DNA from: Cucumis sativus
Lineage: Eukaryota > Streptophyta > Magnoliopsida > Cucurbitales > Cucurbitaceae
Assembly: GCF_000004075.3 (NCBI RefSeq)
Contig: NC_026657.2
Span: 1,984,001 to 2,048,000, forward strand
Reading direction: 5' to 3'
Length of the DNA: 64,000 bases
Shown piece by piece: positions 25,425 to 64,000 of this stretch. Numbering within the stretch: the first letter of the stretch is position 1; each line of letters starts with the position of its first letter. Position numbers and translations under genes: made by a program. The notes beneath the pieces are model-generated. The model was not told the origin of the DNA and ran no database searches. It saw only the letters and a list, made by a program, of their open reading frames with translations.

Positions 25425-26101
25425 TTGGAACCAAACTTCGACTTGTCTCGGCCGGAGACCCAACTGTATCGCCAACTCCAACGTTTGCTCTTGCAAAAAT
25501 TTACTATAACACCCCATCAATTTTCCCACAAATATAGCCCTTTGTTTTTCCCCAGAAAACCTTCCATACTAACAAAAACAAACCATTCGAAGACTTACGG
25601 GATTGAGACTATCATGTTCTTCAGAGCTTTCTTTCAAAACGGCCGACTGATCTTCAGTAAACCGAAACCTTTTTCGACAAGTTCCACCATCTTTTTCATC
25701 ACTTATCCTTCTCGAACAAGCTCCATCCCCATCCACATCTTCATCGTTCATCTCATGTTCAATCCATTTCCCATACACACTCGACCCCGTACTGCTAGGC
25801 TTCGACATCCTCGCCTCCTCTTCATAATCCGCCGTCGACGGCGCCATCCGATTCACTTCGATGCTTCTGAGAAGCGATCTCCCTGTTTCCGATGTCCGAT
25901 CAGCAAAAAGTTCAACACCTGATTCCATAAATTTCAAAAACCCCTATATAAATTTTTTTTCTTTAAAAAAATCCCGATTGGCGATGCTATGTTAGAGAAA
26001 TCGAACCTGAAGAAGCATCATTAGTCCCAGAATTGAGATGTAGAGGAGGAGAATTGACGGTCAATCCAAAATTTAAGCTGATGGTGTTTTGAAGGGATCA
26101 T
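25425..26101 (-). pseudogene. Truncated HD-Zip class II (HAT1/HAT2-like) pseudogene
   Basis: This is a decayed paralogue, in the same orientation, of the intact gene at 46675-48213. The ATG at 26101 and first codons (MIPSKHH) survive, but a 5-base deletion soon after shifts the frame and removes the N-terminal LxLxL repressor motif. The acceptor of the second exon reads ctg|ATC where the intact gene has cag|ATC. The second exon (about 25604-25886) is colinear and open but diverged in the homeodomain arm (CRKRFRFTEDQ in place of [11 protein letters not shown]). The third exon keeps [13 protein letters not shown], then homology ends abruptly at 25425, exactly before the NRRAR residues of recognition helix 3. 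The leucine-zipper exon is absent. A residual transcript could exist, but no functional HD-Zip protein is expected. Confidence 0.88.
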
Positions 26102-26492
26102 GGTTTTGGATTGTGATGAATTTGAAGAAAGAATTTGAAGAAAGAATTTGAAGTAAGAATTTGAAGAAGAAGAAGGGAGAGAGTTGTGGTTGAAGAAAAA
26201 GGGGAGAAAAGGGGGTTTGTATAGAAAGAAATAAAGAAATGGGGAATTGAATATAATTGTTATTTCCTCCATTTTACATGCAAAGTCGATACTTAATTCT
26301 CAAGCTTTAGTTCCTGATAATTTAATTTACGTATGATCTGAAATTTGTGATCGTTATCGTAAAAGTCTCCTCAAAATTAAGTGTTTGGTTTTAGTACTAA
26401 TGGCTTGATTAGAATGGAGTAGTGATTTTTTTTTTTTTTCTTTTTTATAAGTTTGTTGATCGACCTAAAAAAGAAAAATGAAAAAGAAAGAC

Positions 26493-26560
26493 TAACCATA
26501 GTTGAGAATGTGGTTAAAGAATTAAACCATGGTTAAAGGTGAGTGTGATATTTAATTTAC
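26493..26560 (-). promoter_or_regulatory. Upstream conserved block of the HD-Zip II pseudogene
   Basis: This 68-base segment, which includes aattaaaccatggttaaagg and gagtgtgatatttaattta, matches 48953-49021 upstream of the intact HD-Zip II gene with only about four differences. It is better preserved than the pseudogene's coding exons. It contains the palindrome aaccatggtt. A duplicated cis-regulatory element is the simplest reading. Confidence 0.6.
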
Positions 26561-46674: not shown

Positions 46675-48213
46675 TTACGAGCGAGGGTGAAGGGCGTTGA
46701 AAGGCCGGGTGGGTATGGGGGAGGCCCAGGGGTTGATGTGGTGGATAGGGCGAGCGTGGTGGGGCTGAGATTGGGCCTGGCCCATTCGTGTGACAGTGGG
46801 CTGGGGGGCTGATGTGGAGGAGGGCGGAACAGCGACACGCTCACACGAGGGGCACATGGTGAGGGTGGTGGGTGGGGTCATGTGCATGTAGAATTGTGGG
46901 GAAAGTTTGAGTGCTCTCAGTTCTTGTACTTCTTTTTGCAACCGTCTATTCTCCTCCGTTAGATTTTCACAGCATCTCTTTAGGAATTCGCAATCTACTT
47001 CCGTTTGCTTCAACTTTGTCCTGTTTCAATCAATATTCCTAAATTATTAATTAATCATCAATTATTACCCATAAACACCCCTTTCTTTTCCTTTTTTTTT
47101 AATTAATACTAACATCATACCACAATTTAACTCTTTAACTTGTACTAAATCTAACTTAATCAGATGGTGTAAGACAAATTGACGGATCTACAAAATTTGT
47201 TCACACAACCTTTATTATTAACTGAAAATAACCTTAATAATCCCATTCCACTTATGCTAAATCCGTGGTTACACATAAAATAAAAGTTTTTCTTTCTTTT
47301 TTTTTAAAAAAAAAAACAATTTCCATTATCAGAAGCTTTGTCAACTGATTGGATAGAAAAATAGTTTTAATTGGATAAAATAAGAGCTTTAAGGAGTAAA
47401 GTATATAATTTTGTAGAATATATGGTGAATATTATTGTTATGTTGACTAAAATGGAATGGACTTATAGGTGAAGGAAAATTCCTGACCTTGCTCTTCTAT
47501 TTTGGAACCAAACTTCGACTTGTCTTGGCCGGAGACCCAATTGTTTCGCCAACGCCAACTTTTGCTTCTGCACAAATTTATCATAACACCCTCATGAGTT
47601 TTCCCTCAACATAAACCGTTTGTTTCCCGATAAAATCTTCCATACTAACAAAAATAAAGCGGGTCGGTCTCATTCGGACCGGATTCGAAGACTTACCGGA
47701 TTGAGAGTATTATGTTCTTTGAAGCTTTCTTCCAAAACGGCGGACTGATCTTTAGTAAGCCGAAGCTTTTTTCTAGAAGTTTCACCGTCTTCTTCATCAC
47801 TAATTCCTCTCGAACAAGCTCTATCCCCATCCAGATCTTCACCGTTCATCTCACGTTCACTCCGTTTCCCACTCACACTCGATACCGTACTGTTAGGGCT
47901 CGACATCGCCGCCTCCTCTTCACAATCCGCCGTCGACGGCGGCATCCGATTCACATCGATGCCTCTGAGAAGCGATCTCCCTGTTTCCGATGTCCGATCT
48001 GCAAAAAATTCAACACCCAATTCCATAAATTTCAAAAACCCTTTTTAATTAAAAAAAAAAAAAAGAAGAAGAAGAAAATCGGGATTGGCGATGCTGTGTT
48101 ATGGAAATCGAACCTGAAGAAGCATCATTAGTCCAAGAATTGAGATGTAGAGGAGGAGAATCGAGGGTTAATCCAAGGGTTAAACCGAGATTATGGTGTT
48201 TAGAAGGGATCAT
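46675..48213 (-). CDS. HAT2: HD-Zip class II homeodomain-leucine zipper factor, HAT1/HAT2-like
   Basis: Four exons in transcript order (48213-48114, 47998-47697, 47567-47488, 47020-46675) join in phase to give 275 residues. The N-terminus has overlapping LxLxL EAR repressor motifs (LGLTLGLTL, residues 9-17). The homeodomain runs from about [17 protein letters not shown] (107) through [14 protein letters not shown] (163). The zipper follows, with Leu at 174, 181, 188 and 195. The class II CPSCE redox motif is at 217-221, and the C-terminus has INPW and ends HPRS, as in HAT1/HAT2. The protein should be a nuclear repressor binding CAATNATTG sites as a dimer. Arabidopsis relatives act in auxin, brassinosteroid and shade responses. 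A TATATAAT box on the minus strand lies at about 48331-48338. A HAT1 versus HAT2 assignment is not possible; they are co-orthologous in my reading. Confidence 0.95.
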
Positions 48214-48420
48214 GGTTTTGGATTGTGATGAATTTGAAGAGAGAATTAAGGGAAGAGAAGGGAAGAAGAGAAGAAGGGAAGAAGGGAAAGGGAAGAGAGT
48301 TGTGGTCCAAGAAGAAGGGGAGAAAAGAGGGATTATATAGAAAGAGGAAATAGGGGAAATAAATAAAGAAATGGGGGAATTGAATATAATTGCTATTTCT
48401 CAAAATTAATGATGGAAAGG
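48214..48420 (-). promoter_or_regulatory. HD-Zip II core promoter and leader
   Basis: On the minus strand a TATATAAT element lies at about 48331-48338, then a CT-rich leader of roughly 90 bases runs to the ATG at 48213. The pseudogene copy has the corresponding leader but its TATA reads TATACAAA at about 26212-26219, consistent with decay. Confidence 0.6.
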
Positions 48421-48952
48421 AAAGGAAAGGAAAACAAGTAAAAGAGTGTCAGAGGAAAAGCCCCTCCAATTATCCCCAATCATCACTTTTGCCTCTTCAA
48501 AATATGCCCCCCCTCCCTTCCATTATTTTCACTTTTTCTATTTGTTTTTCATTTATATTGTTTCAATTGAGTTTTTTATTTATAAATTTACGTACAAACT
48601 AAATACTTTCATTTTTCAACTTTAGCTAGCGATAGTTTAGTTGATGTGATTTCAAATCTATATTTAAATGATTTGAAATATTTAATTGCTATGATAAAAT
48701 TTTTATTAAAATAAAGTGTTTGGTTTAATGAACAAAATTTGATCTCTTATTAGTTTGTTGATTTAGGTGTGTATTTCAATAATATTTTTTTATGATACGA
48801 ATAATATTATTGTAAATTTTAAAGTGTAGATTGAGACTAAATAGTTACTTTCTGAAAATGTAAGGTACAAAAAATGTGATTAGTCAACTTTTTTAATTTG
48901 AATTGAGGGAGAAAAATGGTATTTGGTTAAATGTAAAAAGGAAAAAGAAAGA

Positions 48953-49021
48953 GTAACCATGGTAGAGAATGTGGTTATAGAATTAAACCATGGTTAATGG
49001 TGAGTGTGATATTTAATTTAC
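48953..49021 (-). promoter_or_regulatory. Upstream conserved block of the HD-Zip II gene
   Basis: This segment is about 94% identical over 68-69 bases to 26493-26560 upstream of the pseudogene. It contains aaccatggtt as a perfect palindrome. It sits about 740 bases upstream of the ATG here, versus about 390 in the pseudogene copy, so the block has been retained while spacing changed. Confidence 0.6.
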
Positions 49022-50884
49022 AAACTTTTTTCACTTTTTGGGTTTACCCTCTTCTCTTTGGGTATCATGTCTTTGGCTTCTTTGCTTTTGGTTCTTTTTC
49101 ATGAGTGCGATCAAAAGCCTCCCCTTTCCATTTTTGCTTTTTCTTTTTTAAAACTATCTATATTTTTTACCAAAAGTTTTACGTTTATCACAAAAACATT
49201 TTAAATATATTGAAAAAATATAGATGGTTACAGTTAGGAAACGAAACGAACATGGTTAATTTTAATAATATAAAAATTAGAGAAAAACCATAGACTTTAA
49301 TCATAATTTATTATTTTTTTAAAAAAAAGAGTAAAAAGAAATGATTTGAGCAATAAACTCAAGACTAATGATAATAATAGAAGGAGGAAGGGAGATTAAA
49401 CGTGGGTCGTTGAAAAAGGAAGAGAGATGAGATGAAGGGTTGAGATGAAAGGAAGATGAAGGGGGCCCAATATATAATTGAAGGAGATTTTTTTAGTTAT
49501 TGTAAAAAGAAAGAAAACAGCGAAGCTAAGACAACCATCAAATCATGAGTGAATGGGTATGATTGGAATCAGACACTTAACCTTTTCATTTCATTCATTC
49601 AGTCTCCTTCCACTCTTCCTTCTGGCCCCCACCTTATCTTTTTTTTTTTTTTTCCAACTCTTAAAATTAACTTTTTCTTCTCAAATTAAATTATTCATAA
49701 TAAATCCTACTGCTCTATCATATTATATAAATATGTATCTTTTTATGTATAACCTTTTTTTTTTTTCTTTTAGGGTGAGAACACTTCGAATGCTTCTACC
49801 TTTGTTGGAAGTAATAATTTAAGGTATTATTTCAATTGCCCTTTTACCTTTTTATATTAATCCTTTAAATAATATTAGTATATGAGACTAATAGGGTTTA
49901 AACCGATAATTATTTAGTTTAGGTGTATTTTTATATATTAAGTGCAAGTAGGAAGGTAGGTAGAATGATGGAAAATAATTGAGGTTTGGTTAATTTGAAA
50001 TAGTGATTTGGAATGGTTAGGGTAGAAGTTTTGGATATCTAAAAATTGAAAGTGAAAATATAATAAAGAAAGAAAAATGAGAAAGTGATAATTGTAAGCG
50101 TGGAACTTCAAAGATGGCGAGCCGACAGCATCCTATGGTCGCCCTCTAAATCTCAAGACATGTTACCTTTTTATATATATTCAATTTTATTATTATTATT
50201 CTTTTTTTATTATTGTTATTTCAACTTTCTTTCTTTATCCATTTCATAATTTTTAAATACATATTTTTAGTTTGACTATTTTCTTTTGGTTTTGAATTTC
50301 ATTTCTCTCAATTATACTATTTTTATACCATTTTGCAAAAGAAATTCTATAATCAATCATCCTTTGAAATAATTTAATTATTAACTTAAATCACATTCAT
50401 CATTGAATTGATCATGGAGGTTTGAAACAAAGATACAAGATATTCATGTATTTTTAAGTACTATTATGTCGACTAATTTAAAGTAAATAAGCTATTATTA
50501 TATGAAATTTTGATGTATTTTTAAGTTGAATAAAGAGAAAATATAAATAATAAATATAAGAAAGAAAGTGATTGGGTGTGGATTGAGAAAGAAATGGAGG
50601 ACTGAATTATTGTTAAGTGAGAAAAGAGAGTAATATAGTATTTAGAAAGGGAAGAATGAAGAAAAAGAAGTGAAAAGGTTAAAAAGATGGGAAAATAGAG
50701 AAGAAGAAGAAATGTGAAGGGGACAACAATGATTGGAATATGATTTAATGAGAATATGATATTATTGTATTGGTGGGTGAAATGAATTTTAATAGAATAT
50801 GATTCATGGAACCAAAAATGAAAGAAATAATTGAAATAATAAGGAGGAGAAGAAGAAGAAAGGGGGACAAAGGGAGGTGGTGTT

Positions 50885-50956
50885 CACGTGGGAAGGGGTG
50901 TTAAGAAAAGCGTGATTTTAAGGAAGGTCACGTGGCCCAACAACATGTGACACGTG
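50885..50956. promoter_or_regulatory. G-box cluster 1 (three CACGTG)
   Basis: CACGTG occurs at 50885, 50929 and 50951. A TCP-type GTGGGACCC follows at 51029-51037. The surrounding 200 bases are GC-rich relative to the neighbourhood. Confidence 0.6.
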
Positions 50957-52864
50957 CGCTCACACCACGGACAACTGTTCTTTTCTTTTCTTTTTTAAAA
51001 AAGAAAAATGAAAAATGAATGAGGAAAGTGGGACCCATGGGAGAGAAATGGGAAGTGGTGGTGCCATGTCACTTTGCCCTCTCAGGTCCCGACACTCCCC
51101 TTCTCCTCAATCATTTGAACTAATATTATTATTATTATTAACAATCTTTATTTATTATTATATATTAAATCATATTTTATAAAATCTTATCACCTTTCTA
51201 TTTCTTTCACTATTGCGCGTCTACTACACGCTCCCCTTTCCTTTTTACAATACTTATTCCTTTCCCTTTCTTTTTTCCACTTTACATTCTTACCTAATAC
51301 TTACGTTTTTTATATACTAATCACCTCTATTTTGTAAAACGATTTTAATAACTCAATTTAAGTTAAATTATATGATTAAATGATGCAAACTTTTGAAAGT
51401 TCAAATATTTACAATCAACTAAGAGATAGGTAATGAAAACACCAAACATAATGTTAAGACATTTATGTTTTGTGAAAACAAAAGAAAAAGAAAAAAAATA
51501 CATTTCTGTCTCTATGCTTAATTAATTACTCTACCAATAATAATAACAATAATTAAAGTGGGCAACTCCTTGTTAAATACTATACCACCTTTTTTAGATT
51601 CTACCATTTAATAATTTATGACATGACCACAAGAGACCTTGTGAAAAATAATTCTTTTTCCTTTCTAAAAGGATCATTATTATAATTCATTATTGTTGTT
51701 ATTATTATAGGTAGGGAATGGAATATAATAGGCTAGAGGATTCAAAAATGAAGACATCTATGTAATTAATATTCCAATGTCTAATACAACTGTTTTCAAA
51801 TAAATTTATTTCTGTTTAATTATAATTATATAATCATTCTATAACAATTTAAACACCATTGCTTATTTTCCAATCATTTAAAACAAAGACTATTGCAAGA
51901 CAATTATTATTAATTTTTCTCCTGACAAAATTAGTTTTAAGAAAACATTTGTTGTACGTTAATATTTTTTGGGTTCAAAATTTGCAAAAGTAATTATAAT
52001 ATTATTTAAGGTTGCAATTCTTTTTTCTAGGTACTTTATTCAAAATTAAGTGATTATAATGATACGATCCCCTCAATAGACCTTACTAGATTAATTTGTA
52101 AAAAGATATTCTACTAGAGAAGAGATAATACTATAAACTGTGTTTTGAAAAGAAAATATTATAATCAATTAACTATGGTAATTAACTAAAAGTGTTTGCA
52201 GTGGAGTGATTAGAATACTTTTAAAAACTAAAAATAAAGCAATGACTATTACCTTTTTTATTTAAGAGAATAAAACCTAAACATATAAATGGATTATTAT
52301 AAAATTTATCTAATTACCAAAAATCCTAACAATAATTTTGGTCTTAAAATCTAATTTCCAATCAATTAATGAAACTTTAACTAAAACAATAATCTCATAA
52401 CATGATAGTTCTTTTTAGGGGATGGAGACAAGAAATTAATCTTAGAATCTTTATTTTTTATGATCATTGTGACTTTGTATGGACTCCATATAAATTTATT
52501 AACTATATACAAATTAAGACGGTTTCTTAACCATATAATTTTTTTTCTTTAATTGTGTTTGTCAATCAATTTTCTTAATATGTATATAATATAAAAATAA
52601 ATAGAAAAGTGGGGCGCGTGAAACAAAGGCTGTAATGGAGGGAGTGGGAGAAAGGAAATTGGAAATATATGTTGGTGTAGTAATGATAGAAGCAATTGAA
52701 TTGTGTTTTTAGATAACAAATCAATTTGAATTATTGTTAATATTATTAATAATAAATACATTTAATAGAAAAAGAAGAATTAAGTGTGAATTAAAATAAA
52801 AGAAAATCCCGACAATATGTTGGATTATGATTAAGGTGTCCCCACTAGTGCGTGCTAGCTGTCC

Positions 52865-53022
52865 CACGTGTCCCCTCCCTCTCCTCAATTATTATTTAAT
52901 CTCTCCTCATTTATTTTTCCTATAAATATTTCCCCACTATGCGACAAAATTACCCCACACGTGGGACCCCCACGCTTCTTCTCACCCCGTACGAGGCTCT
53001 CCCCCCATGTGATTTTCACGTG
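52865..53022. promoter_or_regulatory. G-box cluster 2 (three CACGTG)
   Basis: CACGTG occurs at 52865, 52958 and 53017. The middle one is fused to a TCP-type site, reading CACGTGGGACCC. A TATA-like element (tataaatattt) lies between the first and second. Confidence 0.6.
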
Positions 53023-54950
53023 AACCCTCCCCCACTCTCCCCTCTCCATTTCCCCATTTCACCCCTTCCCTCTTTTTTATTTCTCTCTTCCTTTCTTTAC
53101 CTCTCACATTCAACAAATCCCCAACACAAATTATTACCTCTATATTTGGGATTTCTTCATCATTCCATTTTTTCTTATTATCCAATTAAACTCTCTTTTA
53201 AATCTTTTTTATATACCCTCTCATTATCTCCAGTCCCCATCCTTCAATAATTGAGAGTTATCTGGACCCTCCTTTTTTTAATTAGTTGAAATATATATAT
53301 ATATATATATATATGAAAACGATATATTCATTACTTGTATCAGTATATAGTATATCTCACAACTGCTTGGACACATGAAGGAGGGTCGAGAATGGCTTTC
53401 GTATCTCCTTTACCTTTCATGAGATTAGATTTCAATCATTCTTCAAAAATTGATTGGGTTTTATGGGTCTTTTTTCTCTCTTCTCCTTCAGAAGATTAAA
53501 CCAGTGACTATTGTAGTAAAGTATTTTGCGTGCGACGGGGGATGAAGACAAAATTGAAGTTGGAAATACATTCTTGGTCCCCATCTCTACCAGATTAGAT
53601 TGAATCAAAGAAAAAAAAATTCTCTTGTCTCCAATTAAATGAGAGAATTCCAGCCTGTTTCGAGTAAAGTCTATTTAATCCTGTCTATTTAATTATAATT
53701 CATATCAAACATGTCTCATATCTACATGAGTTTGTCTAATCTTTTTTTTACTTCCCTAGAATCAATTAGAATCTTGGTGGATCACCTCATTAATATCATA
53801 TTCCTTCAAACCAACCAATTCTATTCTAGTTTTTGTTCCCCTTTAATAACATTAATTAGATTCGTTATTTAATCAAATCTATATCATTCAACTTTTCTTT
53901 ATTACCAATAACCAAACTCATCTTATTAATATCCTCTACTTTTATAATTCATCATGCAACTTTCATCAATCATGCCAAGAATATAATTTCTTTTCCCCTA
54001 ATCATTCATAACTAATTTTATAAACTTAAATCTTTTCATTTATTCACTTAATTAAGCCATATTATTATTATTATTATTGTAAAAGAACTTTTTTCATAGA
54101 GTAAAAACAAATCTCATATGATACTTTTCTTAATTTTATTTTACTATTAACTATTTGATACACCGACTATTTACGTATTTAATTACAGCGATATAAACTT
54201 AAAACAACAAAAAGTCGTATTAAAATATAATATTGTTCTTTATTTTACATGGATTACATACTATGTCAATGTCATATAACCATGACTTTTTATTTATTTA
54301 TAAAAAAAAAACCATATTTTACTCCAAACATGAATAAATATACATTTAAAAAAAATAAAACATAAAGTTTACAATCCAGATCAAACTCTTACTTTGGTAG
54401 ATATAATAGCAGATAAATTTTATATGGAATAACCATCTAGTGATTATACCTTCAAATAAAGTTTATTGTTTTATATATGTAATAAACCATTGAAATCAAC
54501 AACTGGTAAAAAGAAAGAAAAAAAAAAAGTTAACATGTAAACCATCCCAGTTGAAAGCAAATGTGAAAAAGTCTATATTATAATATTGATAAAGAGAAAA
54601 GAGAGAGAAAAAAAAAGTCAAAAGTCCCTCAACTGTCCAAAACGCACACATTCTTATCTATATGAACACATAACATGAAAGAAAAAGAAAAACAAGTTGA
54701 CCATAACATTAAGCTCAAATATGAATATCACCCATATGAGAAAGGCATTAAAACATGAAACCTCGTTTTTGAAGATTGGTAAGACTAAAATTGTTAGGGT
54801 GGGATTTAATATAATAAGAAGGAAAAGGTTAAATAATATATATGTAGTTGAGAAAGAAATATAAAGAAGGGTTTATGTATATATATATATGATGTAGATG
54901 TAGGAGGAAAGTAAAATGAAAAAGAAGCGAGGAGAAAATTCCAAAAGGTT

Positions 54951-55126
54951 CACGTGAAGGAAAAAAAGAGATGAAAAGAAAGCAATAATTGGGAAGGATA
55001 AATATTATGGAAGAGGAAGGGGAAGGGATAGGTTCCGACAAGTGAATATTTGGAAGAGAAAAGGAGGAGAGAGAGAGTGAGTGTTTAGAGAAAACACACA
55101 TAAGGTGAGCACGTGAACCGCACGTG
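54951..55126. promoter_or_regulatory. G-box cluster 3 (three CACGTG)
   Basis: CACGTG occurs at 54951, 55110 and 55121; the last two are 11 bases apart, one helical turn. agggaccacgg follows at about 55133-55143. Confidence 0.6.
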
Positions 55127-55419
55127 AAGCAGTAGGGACCACGGTGCTGGTGGTGGTTGCTTCCTCATCCCTTTTTCTTTTTTCTTTTCTTTTTTTTATA
55201 TTATATATTTTTTAAGAATGGAAATTCCCAACTTACCCCTTCCGGATTGTCCAATCATTTGAAGGATGAAGACTGGGTGGGCGGGCCCCCACAGACAACG
55301 CCACATTAAACAAAAACAAAACCAATGTTTTCTTCTTCTTTTTTGTTGATTAGACTTATCGGTTTCCGGTTAGTCTATGTCATCCTCATCCACCCAATCT
55401 TTTTACTTATTCATAATAT

Positions 55420-55461
<42 letters not shown>

Positions 55462-56425
55462 GTAGATGGTAAATATAATTTTAGACTGTATTTCCTTGTC
55501 AGACTTGTTTGGAATAATCAAATATGTCACCTTTACAGTAATCGTAATAGTAATGATAGTGAAATTCACACAATATAATCAATTTGAGCACTCTTCGTTT
55601 CACTATGAGATTGTTGATTGCAAGGAAACAACAACAATAAAATCAAATACTCGAACGAGTATTTAATAAAAGAGTGGAGATTACGAATAGTAGGTATCAA
55701 AAAGGTTTAAATACCTAAGGTATAAAAGTGTATTGTTTTGAGATCTTTAACTTTAAATTAAAATCAAATTCAATAACTAAAAGTGTTATCATGCACACAT
55801 AAAATAACGTTGCATGTTTGAGAAGGATACGATAAGTGTCTTTCAGGAGAAGTATACGATGAGTACAATTTTTTCAAAATCTAAAGCATATAATTAAAAC
55901 AAACTTCAAAGTTCATAGATATCGTGCTATTTTGAAGATCGTACGCAAGATATTTTTCCCTTTTTTCCTTTTCATTTACCGATCATTAGGTATGTAATAT
56001 ATTTTTTCTAATTTTGTGTTTCACATTATTTGTTGATTGAATAAATCAAATAAGTTTCATTTCATCACTCTCTCCTCTCTTGTTTCTCCCCGTTCATGTC
56101 TTCCTCTACTCTTCACCTAATCTAATCATGCTATTTCTTGCCATGTGATTGTTATTAATTTTAATTTTATTTTAAAAGTGCTTTTGGTAGATATTTATGA
56201 GTTGTTTGGAAATCTTCTAGTTTGTATATTATACATGCTCCTAATTTTTATGGGTTATGTACATTTGATAAAAGGACACATGAATTATCTAATTTGGTTA
56301 TTATTATTCTCGTGTTGTTTTAATGTAAAACAATTCCCCCCCTCCACTCCCTAAAGTCCTATAGTTAAAATGGAAAAAAAATAGAAGAGAAAATGGGTTT
56401 GGAAAAAAGGTTTAATCTTTTCCAT

Positions 56426-56951
56426 CACGTGGGTCCCACGTGGGTACAAAACGGACAGCACATCACACGTGTAATGTGTCTAACCCGCACGTTCACTTTC
56501 GGTCAAAGTAACTCTGTCTTCCGCCAGATCCGGTCAACGGTCAAACCCTCCCAAAACAAAATTAAATTATATATAATAATATAAGAAGAAAAAAAAAAGA
56601 AAAAATCATTTCCTCCATAATTATTTGTACCATTTTCCCAATCATACCCTTCTACCGGAATACCCAGTTCTCTTTTCGTACGATCCCCTCACAACCGTCG
56701 GATCCAACTCCCATCCGCCGTCCATCTCTCTCCCCACACGTGCATCTCCCCCTTGCCACGAAGCACCCCTAGGCCCCACGCACCAGAAACCATGTGACCG
56801 CCTGAGCTGGTCACCATGTGATTCTCAGATTCACTCCATCAAAAACGATTCGTTTCGTTAATCGATAATTTAATATTAATTAATCAACAAAACTTAATTA
56901 ATTAAATCAGTTAAATAAAAAGGCTGTCGTTGTTGAGTTGGACTACACGTG
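56426..56951. promoter_or_regulatory. G-box cluster 4 (five CACGTG, with a dyad)
   Basis: CACGTG occurs at 56426, 56437, 56466, 56737 and 56946. The first two form the 17-base inverted repeat CACGTGGG-T-CCCACGTG (56426-56442), which also embeds a TCP-type GTGGGTCCCAC. An aaccgtcggatcc motif lies at 56693-56705. Confidence 0.65.
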
Positions 56952-59355
56952 CAATCGTACCAAAGATCCCAAAAATGATTTTTCCTTTTCTTTTTTTCTC
57001 TTTATAATAAAAATAAAAGGTAAAAGACATATGAGCCCATGCCAACGCAATAAAATAATAATTTACAATATGATTAGCCAAGGGTAATTGGGAAAAATCT
57101 CTACGATAAAGGTATGATTTTCGAGGATTTTGTCTGGAGGAGCATGTTTGGTTGGTGGAATTTTTATTTATTTATTAAGAATGAAAGTGCTTATAATAGC
57201 ATGCTCCAACTTTTAATAAAGGGTTTTTCTTCTTCTTCTTCTTAATTAATATTATTAAAAGGGACAATTTGGAGAAAAAATACAAGTCAAAAAATATATT
57301 TTTATTCTAATCTTAATATTTATAATAATCATATCATTGCTTCAAATGATTTCATTCCTATTTTCCCAATCATACTCTATCATAAGATATTCATGTTCTT
57401 TTTCTTTTTTAAGTTCCTACAAAGATTATTTCAGTTTTGCATTTAATTATGATGTTGGCTTTCTACTTCAAATAAACCTTTTTTTTTTCCCAAACTTTTC
57501 ATTAAAATAGTTATAGAATGAGTATGAGAGTAATATTATTTAGCTACCGAATATTTTCAAATATAGCAAAATTACCCAAAATATTTAAGAAAATATTGCA
57601 AGATATTCAAATTTTATAAATGGTAGATTGATAAACTTTTATTAATGTTTGATAAGACAGTGATATAAGTCTATTATATTATTTCTTTTAATATAATGTA
57701 TCGTCGTAGAATTATGAGATAAACTTTGTTAACGTTGTTGGTTTAGGAGGTTATATTTGGAAGTTGAATCATAAGGACATAATTCAATATTTAATAAATT
57801 ACACATGTGTATTATTATTTGAAAAATATATTATATTCAAATAAAGTACTTTAGTTTTAAAGTACTTGGAGAAAATAAAAAGTGTATGTTAAATGATAAC
57901 AAGTTCTTTTAGCATTTTATTTGATGGTCATGCAACTATTTTTAAATGCTTATCAATGAAGTATGTTGAACTAAAAGTGTTTACAAAAGGGCACTTTTTG
58001 AAATTAGGTTATATATATATATAGTGTTAACATGACATGTAAGTATAATATTATATTTGTTTTTGAAAAATTTCAAATATAATAAAATTGATAAAATAAT
58101 TACAAAAAAAATATATAGTAAAATTTTAGATTATATTAATTATAAATTTTGATAATTGAGTGAATGGCATTAATAGATACTAATAGAATAACACAATCGA
58201 TAGACACAAACACAAATACGTTATTATTGGAATATATTAAATGAAACCTCAATTTATAATTTAACTCCTAAACTTTATTATGTGTATATTCACTGGTTAA
58301 ACTCAATTATTAAGTAATTCTCTATACATAAGTAGACATGTATAAAATGTGATAAAAATTATTAAAAAAACCTCTACAATCAATTTGGTTTACATTTCAA
58401 TAATATTTTTCTATAATATTACGATAATTCCACCGTTTAAGTAAGAAGGGTGTATGCACTTTTTTTCTTTTATCACGAACGCGGTTTTAATAATAGATGA
58501 TGCATATATACACCAGTTTTTTTTACTTTAAAATGTTAATTAAAGCAACGTAACGCGGATTGATTTGATTACATTTAAATATAGAAGATATTTAAGAAAC
58601 CTTAAACTACGTTAAAATTGGACGGTGAATCACAAATCTTAATTCATATCACTTGAAATAATAAAACCACTAAACTTGAAATAAGAGATAATTACGAGAT
58701 TTGCGATCTAATTTGTAATTACGAGATAAAACTATTTTAAAAGAAACACACACAAACCCACGAGAATAATACCTTAAATGTAAAAATGACAAATGAAGAT
58801 CATGATATAAGAATGCAAAATAAGGAAAGAACGTTTGAATAATGATTAAATTTGTTTCACTAAAAATAAAAAACATAAAACTTTGAAACATAAACGTGGT
58901 CTACTTGCATTATTATATGAAGATTCTATTCTAATTGACACCACATGCATTATCTTCTATACATCTTTCCCTACCCTTTTCTTTTAAAATACCATTCTCA
59001 TTTATGTATTTTACTGTCTATTTTAATATCCATCTAAAATATTAAATTAGATTAATAGAGTATGAAAAACACAAAGTACACAAACTAAATAAATGAATTT
59101 GATCTTTTTACAAATTCAATAGAATTTAATAAATTGATCCTAAGTTTGATAAAATTTTCATAATAATATCTACGACATGGACGGAACTAAACTAGTGTTA
59201 TTATTTGAAAAAGAATAAACTAAACTATAATTTGAGATACGATAGTTGAAGTTATCTTAGTTGGAGTTATTTGAATGTATCAAATTAATCATGTTAAAGA
59301 AAAGAATATTAAACAATATTTTAACTAAAAGTTAGTTGTCTCCAACTGTAGTCCG

Positions 59356-59388
59356 CACGTGTTCTTTAGAAGCTGTAGTAAACACGTG
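59356..59388. promoter_or_regulatory. G-box pair upstream of the 2OGD gene
   Basis: CACGTG occurs at 59356 and 59383, with a related tacgtg at about 59400. The pair lies about 720-750 bases upstream of the dioxygenase ATG, within likely promoter distance. Confidence 0.55.
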
Positions 59389-60106: not shown

Positions 60107-63100
60107 ATGGAGTCAGCTCTACAACTCCCAATCATTGATCTCTCCTCTCAAGATCGCGACGCCACGGCTCTCTCAGTCCGCCAGGTTCGTCATATAATTT
60201 ACGAATTCAACTTTCTCCATCGTTTCCCCCCTCTAAATTCTGACTGAATTCCGTTTTCTACGGTTGAAAATTGATCACAGGCTTGCTTAGATTACGGGTT
60301 CTTTTACATAATCAATCATGGCGTTGAAGAAACGTTGCTCGAGAGAATGTTCGACGAAAGCAGGAAGTTCTTCTCTCTTCCTGTTGAGGAGAAGATGAAA
60401 CTTGTTCGGAAGGAACATAGGGGCTACACCGCTCTTTATGCTGAGAAACTCGATCCCACCGCCTCCAATGATATAGGTTTTTGTTCCATGTCTGATTTGA
60501 AATTTATGCATTGTGATTTCAAGCTGTGCTTATGAATGTTGAAAATAGGAACTTATGAAAGGGTTAAAGCAAACCCATTAGTAAATCAAACAAACTTAAA
60601 CTACTAGTTCTTGTTCTTAATTTTCACGTCCGTCTTTATCTGGTCTCTAAACTTTTTAAAATATACAACTTTCAATTTGTGTATAATGAGTCTTTAAACT
60701 TTCAATTCTGTAACCGTGATATGTTATTATTATTATTTTTAAAATAGTTGATAATTGAACCTTATGTCTATTGGTATCCTAAAATTTAAATTTGTGTTCC
60801 GTGGATACACGCATTTTAACCGTCTGAGAATCTATGAGATACAAGATCGAAAGTTTAAGACCTTTCTAGACACCTTTTAGTATTCACAAACCTTTTGGAA
60901 CAAAGTTGAAAGTTTAGATACCTATACAACTCTTTTAAAAGTTCAACGATATAATAGGTACACAATTGAAAGTTTAGGAACTAAATTTGTAACTTTAACC
61001 GTAAAATAACTACAAGATAAATAGATTGTAATACCCCATAACTTCTTGCTTTCAAAATGTAGCAATCTTTGAAGACACCTTGTATGCTGCTAAACTATTC
61101 TAATATCTGGGTTGCTTATTACTCAAAACAATAATAGCACAAGAATAATATAATTACTGTTGAAACGCTTATGGTTTTACAGAAAGGTGAAACAGGGTCT
61201 ATCATGGAGTATACTAGTGCCCATTTTTTATAGCCTGTTCTTTCTCATTTTAAATTGGACTTCTTTCTTGTAATTCACCAATAAGGTGTTTGAGATTTCC
61301 CCCCTCAATGGAATCGTTTCTTCAATTAAAAAGGTCAGTGCCTGTGTTTTAAGAGAGGACTTGTTAGCCAAGCCCATTGACCAGTTCCTATTCAATTGTT
61401 TTTATGTGAATAGGGGATGCAAAAGAGAGCTATTATATTGGCCCTTTGGCTGGGAATGCAACTGAAAGCGACTTGAATCAGTGGCCTTCAAGAGGTGAGC
61501 AATGAGTTTATTTTTGGAAAAGATTTGAATTTCTTGACTATTGTTTTGATCAACTGTTACTCTTTCTGGCAACGAAATGACAGAACAATTGCCTTCTTGG
61601 AGAGCTACGATGGAATCCTTCTATAAGCAAGCATCGTAAGTTTAAATGTCTTTGGGTTAAATTTTAGTACATCTTCGTAGTATCAATGTAGTAATAAAAT
61701 GGGTACTATGTTGTTTCGAATGCATGCTTTGTTCACTGGACTCAAAAAGTATTCGTGGGATGTTTATGCTGGACAGTTACATTGTTTGAATTTGGTCTGA
61801 CTGTAATATCTTGCTCTCTCGTTGGCTGCTACAGGCTAGTTGGAAGACAAGTAATATCTTTGATTGCATTGGCTTTGAATCTGGATGAACATTACTTTGA
61901 GAAAATTGGTGCCTTGAATAACCCGACAGCATTTCTTCGGCTTCTACACTACCCAGGTTCAGTGACACACGTCACTTTTAATGTGAAAACTAAAGGAAAG
62001 AAGAAAGTAAATGTTCATTTGTTGAGCCTGCTTCCACCCCCTTGGTCTTTCTCCAAACCAAAATTTGATGTTGTCTTCTATTAAATAGAAAATTTAAAGA
62101 GGTTGGAGATGATTTTTTCCTTTTGTTTTAGTGTTGAAAGGCGTTGGCCTGTTTCTGTTTTAACAGGGACGGAATGAGAAATGAAAAGTGAAAAACAAAT
62201 GGAATGTAAGTAAAGAATGAAGGTGATGGAATGAGAATAAAACATGTATACAAAAATTATTTTGGTTCAGAAATGAGATTACTAGGGTATTCTTCAGAAT
62301 GAAAATCACATTTAAGTTTATTTGGGATTAAAACAAGTCATAAGAAGAAGATAAAAAAAAGTAGAATACTGATCGATCTAACAAAACGAGGGTGTGAGAT
62401 TAAGGTGCAATTATACTCGTTCCCTCATTCTCATTTCTTTGATCATATACATGCTTAGGGGTTGTTTTGGGCACTGAGTTCTGAGTATGGAGTTAGGAAG
62501 TTTATGTTTGGAGTATAGAGTTATTTAGTCTGAAGTTTGAAAATATTAGAGGAAGGAAGATGAAGTTTCTAAATAAATATGCAAACTTTAATAGCTAATA
62601 CTATTAAAGTTTGTAGAGTTGAATTATTTAACACCGACTTATAAAATTGCTAGGGGAGGGGTGTTTGGCAACTTGAGTAATTTGGGAGAGTTAGGTTGGG
62701 TGGGTGAAAAAAACCAACACACCGTTTGGTTCACCAATAATTAAAGAAGTTTATTACCTTATTATCCGCATCAACTCACATTTCTCACCAAAGAAAACTC
62801 ACATTTCTTACCTTGTTTATTTGTTTCAACTCTCTCAATTATTTCCAACCCAACTCAACTTTGTGTTTTTTTCGCTAACCATACGCCCCCTTAGTATTTT
62901 GTTTCGTCTTCAAGTTGAGGGATGCAATCTTGTTGATAATCTACTCACTATCTTGAACTCAGGTGACTTGAGATCTCTTGATGAAGGAATATTAGGTGCT
63001 TCTGCACATTCAGATTATGGGATGATCACTCTCCTTGTTACCAATGGCATTTCCGGACTTCAGGTATTGAGATCTTACCTCTTAGAGAAGATTGTGTGTA

Positions 63101-64000
63101 TTATGAGGTGAAAGTCTCGTGTCAAGTGGCCATGATGCAACAGGTATGCAAGGAAAAGTTTGATCGTCCGCAAGTCTGGGAAGATATCGTCCCTATAGAA
63201 AAGTGAGTTCAAAACTCGATCATAAAATGATGTTCTAAACGACACCAATAGGGAAGGGTCATAACTGTTTATAAAAGAATAATTTTCTCTTGGAATTCAA
63301 AGCATGAAATTCTCTGATTTTGCAGGGCATTCATTGTTAATGTTGGGGACTTGATGGAAAGGTGGACCAACTGTTTGTTCCGGTAAAGATCAATGATGTA
63401 CATTATGATAAATGCTAGTTGGAGTAAAGTAAGAACTAAATTCTTTTATTGGTTATTTGATCATTTTTTGTGTGAATTACAATAGGTCGACTCTACATCG
63501 AGTGATTCCAGTTGGAGAAGAACGTTATTCGGTAAGGTCCATTCACTTGTTTGGTTTCTGATACTAGAGCATGAATTCTAAAATATTCTGCCTATAAACC
63601 TTTCCATTAACTGAAGAAACGACATGTTGGGAAGCCTATTTGGAGGAATTTTTTTTGTGTTATCCTTTCCAAAGACGGTAATTTTAGCTTGAAATCTCTC
63701 ATTTTGCAGGTGGCTTTCTTCTTCGATCCCAATGAAGATTGTGTTGTGGAATGTCTTCAAAGTTGTTGTAGTGAGTCATCTCCCCCAAGGTATTGGCATT
63801 CCCTCCTTTTATAATACTATCCCCAAAATCTTATACAATGAAGTGGTGTTCTAAGAAGAGTTAGATTTTTTCTTTTAGAAGTAAAAAGAAGACTTTCATT
63901 AAGGAAAAAAAAAAAGAACGAATACACAGATATATAAAAAAGTACAATCCCATGTAAAGGGGACCTCTCTAGTCAAGTAAAATGTGACTTGCTGAGGAAT
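60107..64000 (+). CDS. 2-oxoglutarate/Fe(II)-dependent dioxygenase, partial at right edge
   Basis: Ten exons are visible: 60107-60184, 60281-60476, 61414-61494, 61584-61635, 61835-61956, 62963-63063, 63144-63202, 63326-63382, 63486-63531 and 63710-63789. All are in phase, encoding 290 residues before the window ends inside an intron. The protein couples 2-oxoglutarate decarboxylation to oxidation of an unidentified substrate, probably in the cytosol. LPIIDLSS and ACLDYGFFYIINHGV form the DIOX_N domain. Iron ligands are His192 and Asp194 (AHSDYG) and His253 (STLHRVIP); Arg262-Tyr-Ser264 binds 2-oxoglutarate. GDLMERWTNCLFR and CVVECLQSCCSESSPPR suggest the At3g46490/At3g49630 clade (isopenicillin-N-synthase-like), not GA or ACC oxidases. 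The last one or more exons are missing. Intron 5 carries a MITE and intron 2 an old repeat. Confidence 0.92.
60640..60990. repeat. Dispersed 'actttcaatt' repeat, copy 2, in 2OGD intron 2
   Basis: Phrases such as tctaaacttt, taaactttcaattctgt, gaaagtttaga and gaaagtttaggaactaaatt recur with local direct repetition. It resembles 44345-44540. It is non-coding and spliced out. Confidence 0.45.
62458..62890. mobile_element. PIF/Harbinger (Tourist)-like MITE in 2OGD intron 5
   Basis: The left end reads GGGGTTGTTTTGGGC and the reverse complement of the right end reads GGGGGCGTATGGTT. TTA flanks both ends (62455-62457 and 62891-62893), the target site favoured by this superfamily. A second GGGGTGTTTGGCAACT motif near 62659 hints at a nested or internally duplicated copy. 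There is no transposase. The right end lies only about 70 bases before exon 6. Confidence 0.6.

Follow-up and report, generated by a model that had tools for sequence, protein, structure and literature searches.

A dense array of G-boxes between an HD-Zip II gene and a dioxygenase gene of Cucumis sativus: a candidate distal control region

The Cucumis sativus DNA analysed here, hereafter called the window, is a stretch of 64,000 nucleotides (C3:1984001-2048000, C3 being contig NC_026657.2; the genome comprises 226.6 Mb in 88 contigs). Between an HD-Zip class II gene and a 2-oxoglutarate/Fe(II) dioxygenase gene, whose start codons are approximately 11.9 kb apart, the hexamer CACGTG (the G-box) is found 16 times at positions 50885 to 59388, and the question is which gene they serve. 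The G-box density in this array is real and strongly non-random. On balance, the region from 50.9 to 57.0 kb is probably, to judge by its sequence, a distal cis-regulatory region of four modules, hereafter called islands A-D, each with several G-boxes for dimeric bHLH and/or bZIP factors and with the HD-Zip II gene at 48.2 kb as the main target.

An earlier note on this DNA had counted 16 G-boxes in 50885-59388 and seven in the remainder of the window, expecting roughly one per 20-25 kb. The recount gave the same numbers and all of the same 16 sites, and the base composition of the region predicted 0.43, or approximately one per 20 kb. None of 100 dinucleotide shuffles of the whole window reached the 23 CACGTG observed (mean 2.16, largest 8). 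When 48.3-60.0 kb was shuffled in 250-bp blocks, so that dinucleotides were kept and GC-rich islands stayed GC-rich, the mean was 0.40 and the maximum 3 in 1000 shuffles, compared with the 16 observed. Among 24 palindromic hexamers of equal composition, the runner-up occurred three times in the region (all others 0-3 times).

The genome contains 24,927 CACGTG, or 0.94 per 8.5 kb (20,365 for the control GTGCAC). The largest number in any 8,504-bp window was six among the matches listed for C1:1-846 kb (C1 being chromosome 1), five in 200 kb of DNA preceding ten other HD-Zip II genes on their upstream side and four in the part of the window to the left of 48.2 kb; an 8-kb stretch at C1:2.019 Mb, chosen for its G-box pairs, contained ten. 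None of the sampled 8.5-kb windows reached 16, and the ranking applies to these samples rather than to all windows of the genome. At shorter scales denser spots exist, with seven CACGTG in 0.65 kb (C1:4011326-4011977) and six in 0.75 kb (C3:39638714-39639464). Close pairs (gap of up to 30) numbered five in the 8.5 kb of the array, compared with 0.025 expected from the genome rate; the whole genome has 664, compared with 165 for the reversed word, and the 50 close pairs listed for C1:0-15.9 Mb were never more than three in any 8.5-kb window. The sites at 56426-56471 are one of 25 G-box triplet matches genome-wide (control 7).

Fourteen of the 16 G-boxes are within islands A-D, which are, as the earlier note had described them, richer in guanine plus cytosine (GC content 0.42-0.51) than the rest of 48.3-60.0 kb (0.26). 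CACGTG was their most over-represented hexamer (14 compared with 0.17 expected), and CATGTG, the PIF-type PBE box, was present four times compared with 0.47 expected, a number reached by two of 1000 shuffles. Island A (50860..51110, GC 0.48) has G-boxes at 50885, 50929 and 50951, a PBE box at 50944 and GTGGGACCC at 51028. Island B (52830..53070, GC 0.51) has G-boxes at 52865, 52958 (fused to GTGGGACCC) and 53017, including the arrangement CATGTG-N5-CACGTG at 53006-53022. Island C (54930..55310, GC 0.42) has G-boxes at 54951, 55110 and 55121, the latter two forming CACGTG-N5-CACGTG. Island D (56400..56970, GC 0.42) has five, at 56426, 56437, 56466, 56737 and 56946, and PBE boxes at 56791 and 56815.

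The first two G-boxes of island D, whose starts are 11 bp apart, form the composite G-box/TCP-type/G-box element CACGTGGGTCCCACGTG (56426..56442). It contains the sole CACGTGGGNCC match, of the 90 listed, with an opposite-sense partner 6 bp on, and is therefore the only CACGTGGGNCCCACGTG in the genome. As a genome-wide element the G-box/TCP composite was weak, with 90 CACGTGGGNCC compared with 64 for the control. The TCP-type site GTGGGNCCC occurs four times in the window, always within the array region and its islands, and is fused to three of the 16 G-boxes (52958, 56426 and 56437), the site at 51028 being separate; the joining of G-boxes to TCP-type sites proposed in the earlier note was confirmed for these three, although 'several' was an overstatement.

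No second copy of islands A-B or C-D was found elsewhere in the genome, except for an AT run, in a search that skips simple repeats, and within the reach of this search the array therefore does not belong to a transposon family. Comparison of the islands with one another gave nothing at E 1e-4. The repeats listed for the region are low-complexity T- or A-rich only (e.g. 55172-55215 and 56562-56605), and an origin of the islands from transposons or tandem repeats was not supported.

The spacing of G-box pairs was compared throughout the genome, with the reversed word as control. The pair CACGTG-N5-CACGTG, in which the G-box starts are 11 bp, or one helical turn, apart, was found 77 times (control 2). 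The other 30 spacers (N0-4 and N6-30) had a mean of 19.6 pairs per spacer, N5 thus being approximately four times commoner; N0-4 gave 86 pairs in all (control 25), N6-10 gave 156 (control 20), partly from repeat families, N11-20 gave 198 (control 33) and N21-30, by difference, 147. The Poisson tail for the N5 excess, 8e-23, is too optimistic, as some of the 77 pairs have a common spacer, such as CATTG in four of the 50 listed. Two of the 77 are in the array (55110-55126 and 56426-56442; P approximately 0.001 given 16 sites). The N9/N10 pairs CACGTGAGGGTGAGGCACGTG and CACGTGTCACTCTACRCACGTG recur among the matches listed and look like dispersed repeat families. A literature search of titles and abstract openings, covering in several cases a small part of the matches, gave nothing on the locus and only one paper on G-box spacing of this kind (PMC3622567). 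That paper describes a rice peak of ACGT-N7-ACGT, which its authors call noteworthy and without earlier report; N7 was raised relative to control words in Arabidopsis and was no outlier in Arabidopsis, soybean or sorghum.

Five other dense clusters of the same genome were considered, namely two C1 regions with three listed close pairs (C1:2019435-2021713 and C1:4011326-4011977, the richest in close pairs according to the list for 15.9 Mb) and three of the remaining places with triplets. Each of the C1 clusters is upstream of one of two bHLH paralogs that carry the motif SKHSATEQRRRSKINDR and resemble BIM1 at the N terminus, and which we take to be BIM-like; Pfam gave no match for their N-terminal parts. 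A distance of approximately 7-9 kb separates the first of these clusters from the first BIM-like exon seen; the second is 4-5 kb upstream of its BIM-like exon. The clusters were tied to these genes because the two upstream regions have colinear stretches in common, one of 26 bp (96 % identity, E 3e-6) and one of 21 bp (95 %, E 0.003) which holds a G-box; in the C1 flank test four of 500 shuffles reached the observed value. The sequences of these two upstream regions suggest that dense G-box clusters can be under constraint. A third cluster (C3:39638714-39639464), the one with six G-boxes in 0.75 kb, is directly upstream of a GATA zinc-finger gene, and for the remaining two no gene was identified in the DNA read; three of the five can thus be linked to transcription-factor genes. 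BIM1 works together with BES1, and elongation in shade is reduced in bim mutants (PMC7383782); HAT1 is a direct target of BES1 and its co-repressor (PMC6163518); and in Arabidopsis PIF7 acts directly on ATHB2 and HAT2, where chromatin accessibility responds to shade (PMC12690957). By inference only, these links point to a brassinosteroid/light theme.

A wider and more tentative idea is that plants have a phased G-box grammar, in which CACGTG pairs at a distance of exactly 11 bp, and hence on the same face of the helix, would be under selection throughout the genome because two factor dimers bind them cooperatively, as a plant counterpart of the animal clock tandem E-box. Arrays rich in close pairs would then mark the regions that control transcription factors of the brassinosteroid/light response, namely the HD-Zip II gene and the two BIM-like bHLH paralogs. 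We regard this as possible but doubtful, the more so because N7 was no outlier in the two dicots of PMC3622567.

The HD-Zip II gene (46678..48213, minus strand), of a family with a part in light-dependent control of growth, was identified from exon matches, the reading frames and Pfam. Its four coding exons are approximately 48213-48097, 48005-47691, 47585-47481 and 47043-46678, the junction of exons 1 and 2 being guessed. Homeodomain, HALZ and HD-ZIP_N (PF00046, PF02183, PF04618) were all above the cut-off, in agreement with its class, and a CPSCE motif is readable in its frames; we take the gene to be HAT1/HAT2-like. With its start codon near 48213, it is apparently intact and points away from the array, which agrees with the neighbour named in the earlier note. 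The interval that the note had called gene-poor likewise contained no recognisable gene: Rfam gave no match above the gathering score in 20-64 kb of the window, ARAGORN found no tRNA, and there was no credible Pfam match for the 12 tested of the 22 open reading frames of at least 40 amino acids between the genes. A hidden RNA gene was rejected on these Rfam (20-64 kb) and ARAGORN results.

A truncated tandem copy, with the 5' part of the gene and part of the homeodomain, is found at 25425..26560 (minus strand; BLAST, reading frames and Pfam), the copy itself being at 25.4-26.3 kb. An 87-bp stretch without a G-box (48935..49021), located upstream of both HD-Zip II copies and outside the array, is 93 % identical to 26474-26560 in the self-comparison of the window by BLAST. 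In the comparison of 25425-26560 with 47502-49021, the longer BLAST match, over the 5' part of the gene, has 80 % identity with gaps; since several 60-column windows of that 5' part also reach 0.90-0.95 in the gapped alignment, the 87-bp stretch does not clearly stand out by its conservation.

If the HD-Zip II gene is the main target, islands A-D would act as separate modules in open chromatin, each with several G-boxes for dimeric bHLH and/or bZIP factors; PIF proteins and BES1/BZR1 with bHLH partners may bind the modules cooperatively, and the many inputs could give a sharp transcriptional response to shade, light or hormone. The argument of the earlier note, that class II HD-Zip genes are classic PIF targets, gained from the enrichment of PBE boxes and from ATHB2 and HAT2 as PIF7 targets (PMC12690957), but being such a target does not by itself explain the array, since ten other HD-Zip II genes, picked from sequence matches in the same genome, have none. 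The closest of these paralogs (C3:6.69 Mb), with five G-boxes within 4 kb upstream, was counted in favour of the HD-Zip II gene as target.

Several observations weigh on the other side. The ten paralogs have 30 G-boxes in 200 kb (20 kb upstream of each) and no array, so that an array as a general property of HD-Zip II genes was rejected, and the truncated copy also lacks one, no CACGTG being present between 12258 and 33846. No G-box-containing stretch common to the array and the ten paralogs was found, the matches being short, without a G-box and mostly AT-rich, and the flanks of the G-boxes were no better matched to the paralogs than shuffled flanks (114 of 200 shuffles reached the best match). 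The array is about midway between the HD-Zip II gene and the dioxygenase gene. Of the C1 clusters used for comparison, that at 2.019 Mb has the BIM-like gene farther off than a WD-repeat-like open reading frame pointing away from it (C1:2016046-2016469, at approximately 3 kb), and that at 4.011 Mb is directly past the end of a PHD-like open reading frame. Finally, the commonest G-box spacing reported for PIF4 peaks of Arabidopsis is 30 bp, not 11 (PMC9477738), which makes PIF4 a less likely reader of the pairs 11 bp apart.

To go by position, the array could serve the dioxygenase gene, or the two divergent genes together, instead of having the HD-Zip II gene as its main target, as the islands are 2.7-8.7 kb upstream of the HD-Zip II start codon and 3.2-9.2 kb from that of the dioxygenase, in whose near promoter the G-box pair at 59.4 kb is located. 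This is nevertheless unlikely, as the DNA from 57.0 to 59.3 kb is without G-boxes and carries repeat remnants, and as large gene spaces rich in conserved noncoding sequences (CNSs) have been reported chiefly for genes of transcription factors and of 'response to' categories (Freeling 2007, as cited in PMC3708275). Less likely still is that islands A-D serve as promoters for transcripts so far unannotated, from long non-coding RNA or small-peptide genes, instead of being distal enhancers. The purine fraction in 200-bp bins is strand-polarised beside islands A, B and C (0.73 left of A, 0.74 left of C and 0.23 from 53000 in B), and in island B TATAAATA near 52921 is followed by CT-rich DNA, resembling a plant 5' leader, which leaves room for transcripts; the Rfam, tRNA and Pfam searches described above speak against them. 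The two ideas overlap, because enhancers can be transcribed.

CACGTG is bound by the PIF, BES1/BZR1, bZIP and MYC families alike, and the sites may accordingly be bound chiefly by bZIP (abscisic acid/HY5/GBF) or MYC factors, giving stress or jasmonate input rather than shade or brassinosteroid input. For Arabidopsis and rice, ACGT pairs have been tied to genes of the salt and drought responses (PMC3622567), but the extended form ACGTGGC is present at only one of the 16 G-boxes (50929) and CATGTG, a PIF-type E-box, is enriched beside the G-boxes, although it is also a dehydration-response box (PMC3708275); we consider such input possible and rather less than an even chance. That the array is a by-product of chance or of the composition of GC-rich islands, without function, would fit the lack of a G-box-containing stretch in common with the paralogs, but is very unlikely in view of the block shuffles, which never exceeded three, and of the equal-composition palindromes at 0-3.

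The dioxygenase gene (60107..63800, plus strand) was read by eye from its exons, with Pfam DIOX_N and 2OG-FeII_Oxy; its start is at 60107 and the 3' end given is provisional. The G-box pair at 59356..59388, approximately 0.7 kb upstream of this start, adjoins TGGGCY-type sites (59449, 59492 and 59501) and is most likely part of the dioxygenase promoter. A further G-box pair, at C3:2050768 and C3:2050825, is located approximately 2.8 kb past the right end of the window, one of its sites being fused to GGNCC (CACGTGGGTCC). Island D and the dioxygenase gene are separated by DNA with two remnants of dispersed repeats, at 57553-57644 and 58047-58157 (57553..58157), which are similar to many places in the genome.

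If the HD-Zip II gene is indeed the main target of the array, the 6-kb stretch would be a test bed for how the number and spacing of G-boxes determine the way in which a growth regulator of a crop responds to light and hormones. The one-turn spacing excess predicts cooperative binding, and bears on the ACGT-N7-ACGT peak of rice.

Several known systems resemble the array in part. The tandem E-boxes E1-E2 of mammals, which bind two CLOCK:BMAL1 dimers, are also about one helical turn apart, with a spacer of 6-7 (PMC3043000) rather than the 5 found at 55110 and 56426. The N5 G-box pair is at the same time an ACGT-N7-ACGT repeat, which is high relative to control words in rice and Arabidopsis; the sole spacing peak common to the four species of that study was N0, unlike the N5 pair, and it dealt with ACGT pairs in plant promoters (PMC3622567), whereas full G-boxes were compared here over a whole genome with a reversed-word control. 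ATHB2 and HAT2 are likewise HD-Zip II genes with upstream sites, and both PIF7 sites of ATHB2 hold G-boxes; these sites are bound by PIF7 in Arabidopsis, whereas the array is known from sequence alone, and approximately 90 % of the accessible sites in the Arabidopsis study are within 2 kb of the transcription start site, whereas the array begins 2.7 kb upstream (PMC12690957). The bigfoot genes, defined for grasses in PMC3708275 after Freeling et al. (2007), are defined by four or more CNSs, at one per kb, that homeologs or orthologs have in common, whereas the array is known from one genome. The likeness otherwise extends to a gene that encodes a transcription factor, to upstream DNA free of genes over more than 4 kb (at least 4 kb by definition, approximately 11.9 kb here), to separate islands, and to enrichment of the G-box, with CATGTG as the other leading motif (PMC3708275). 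By this analogy, the G-box array is likeliest a bigfoot-like distal control region, such as earlier work has described for regulator genes of plants.

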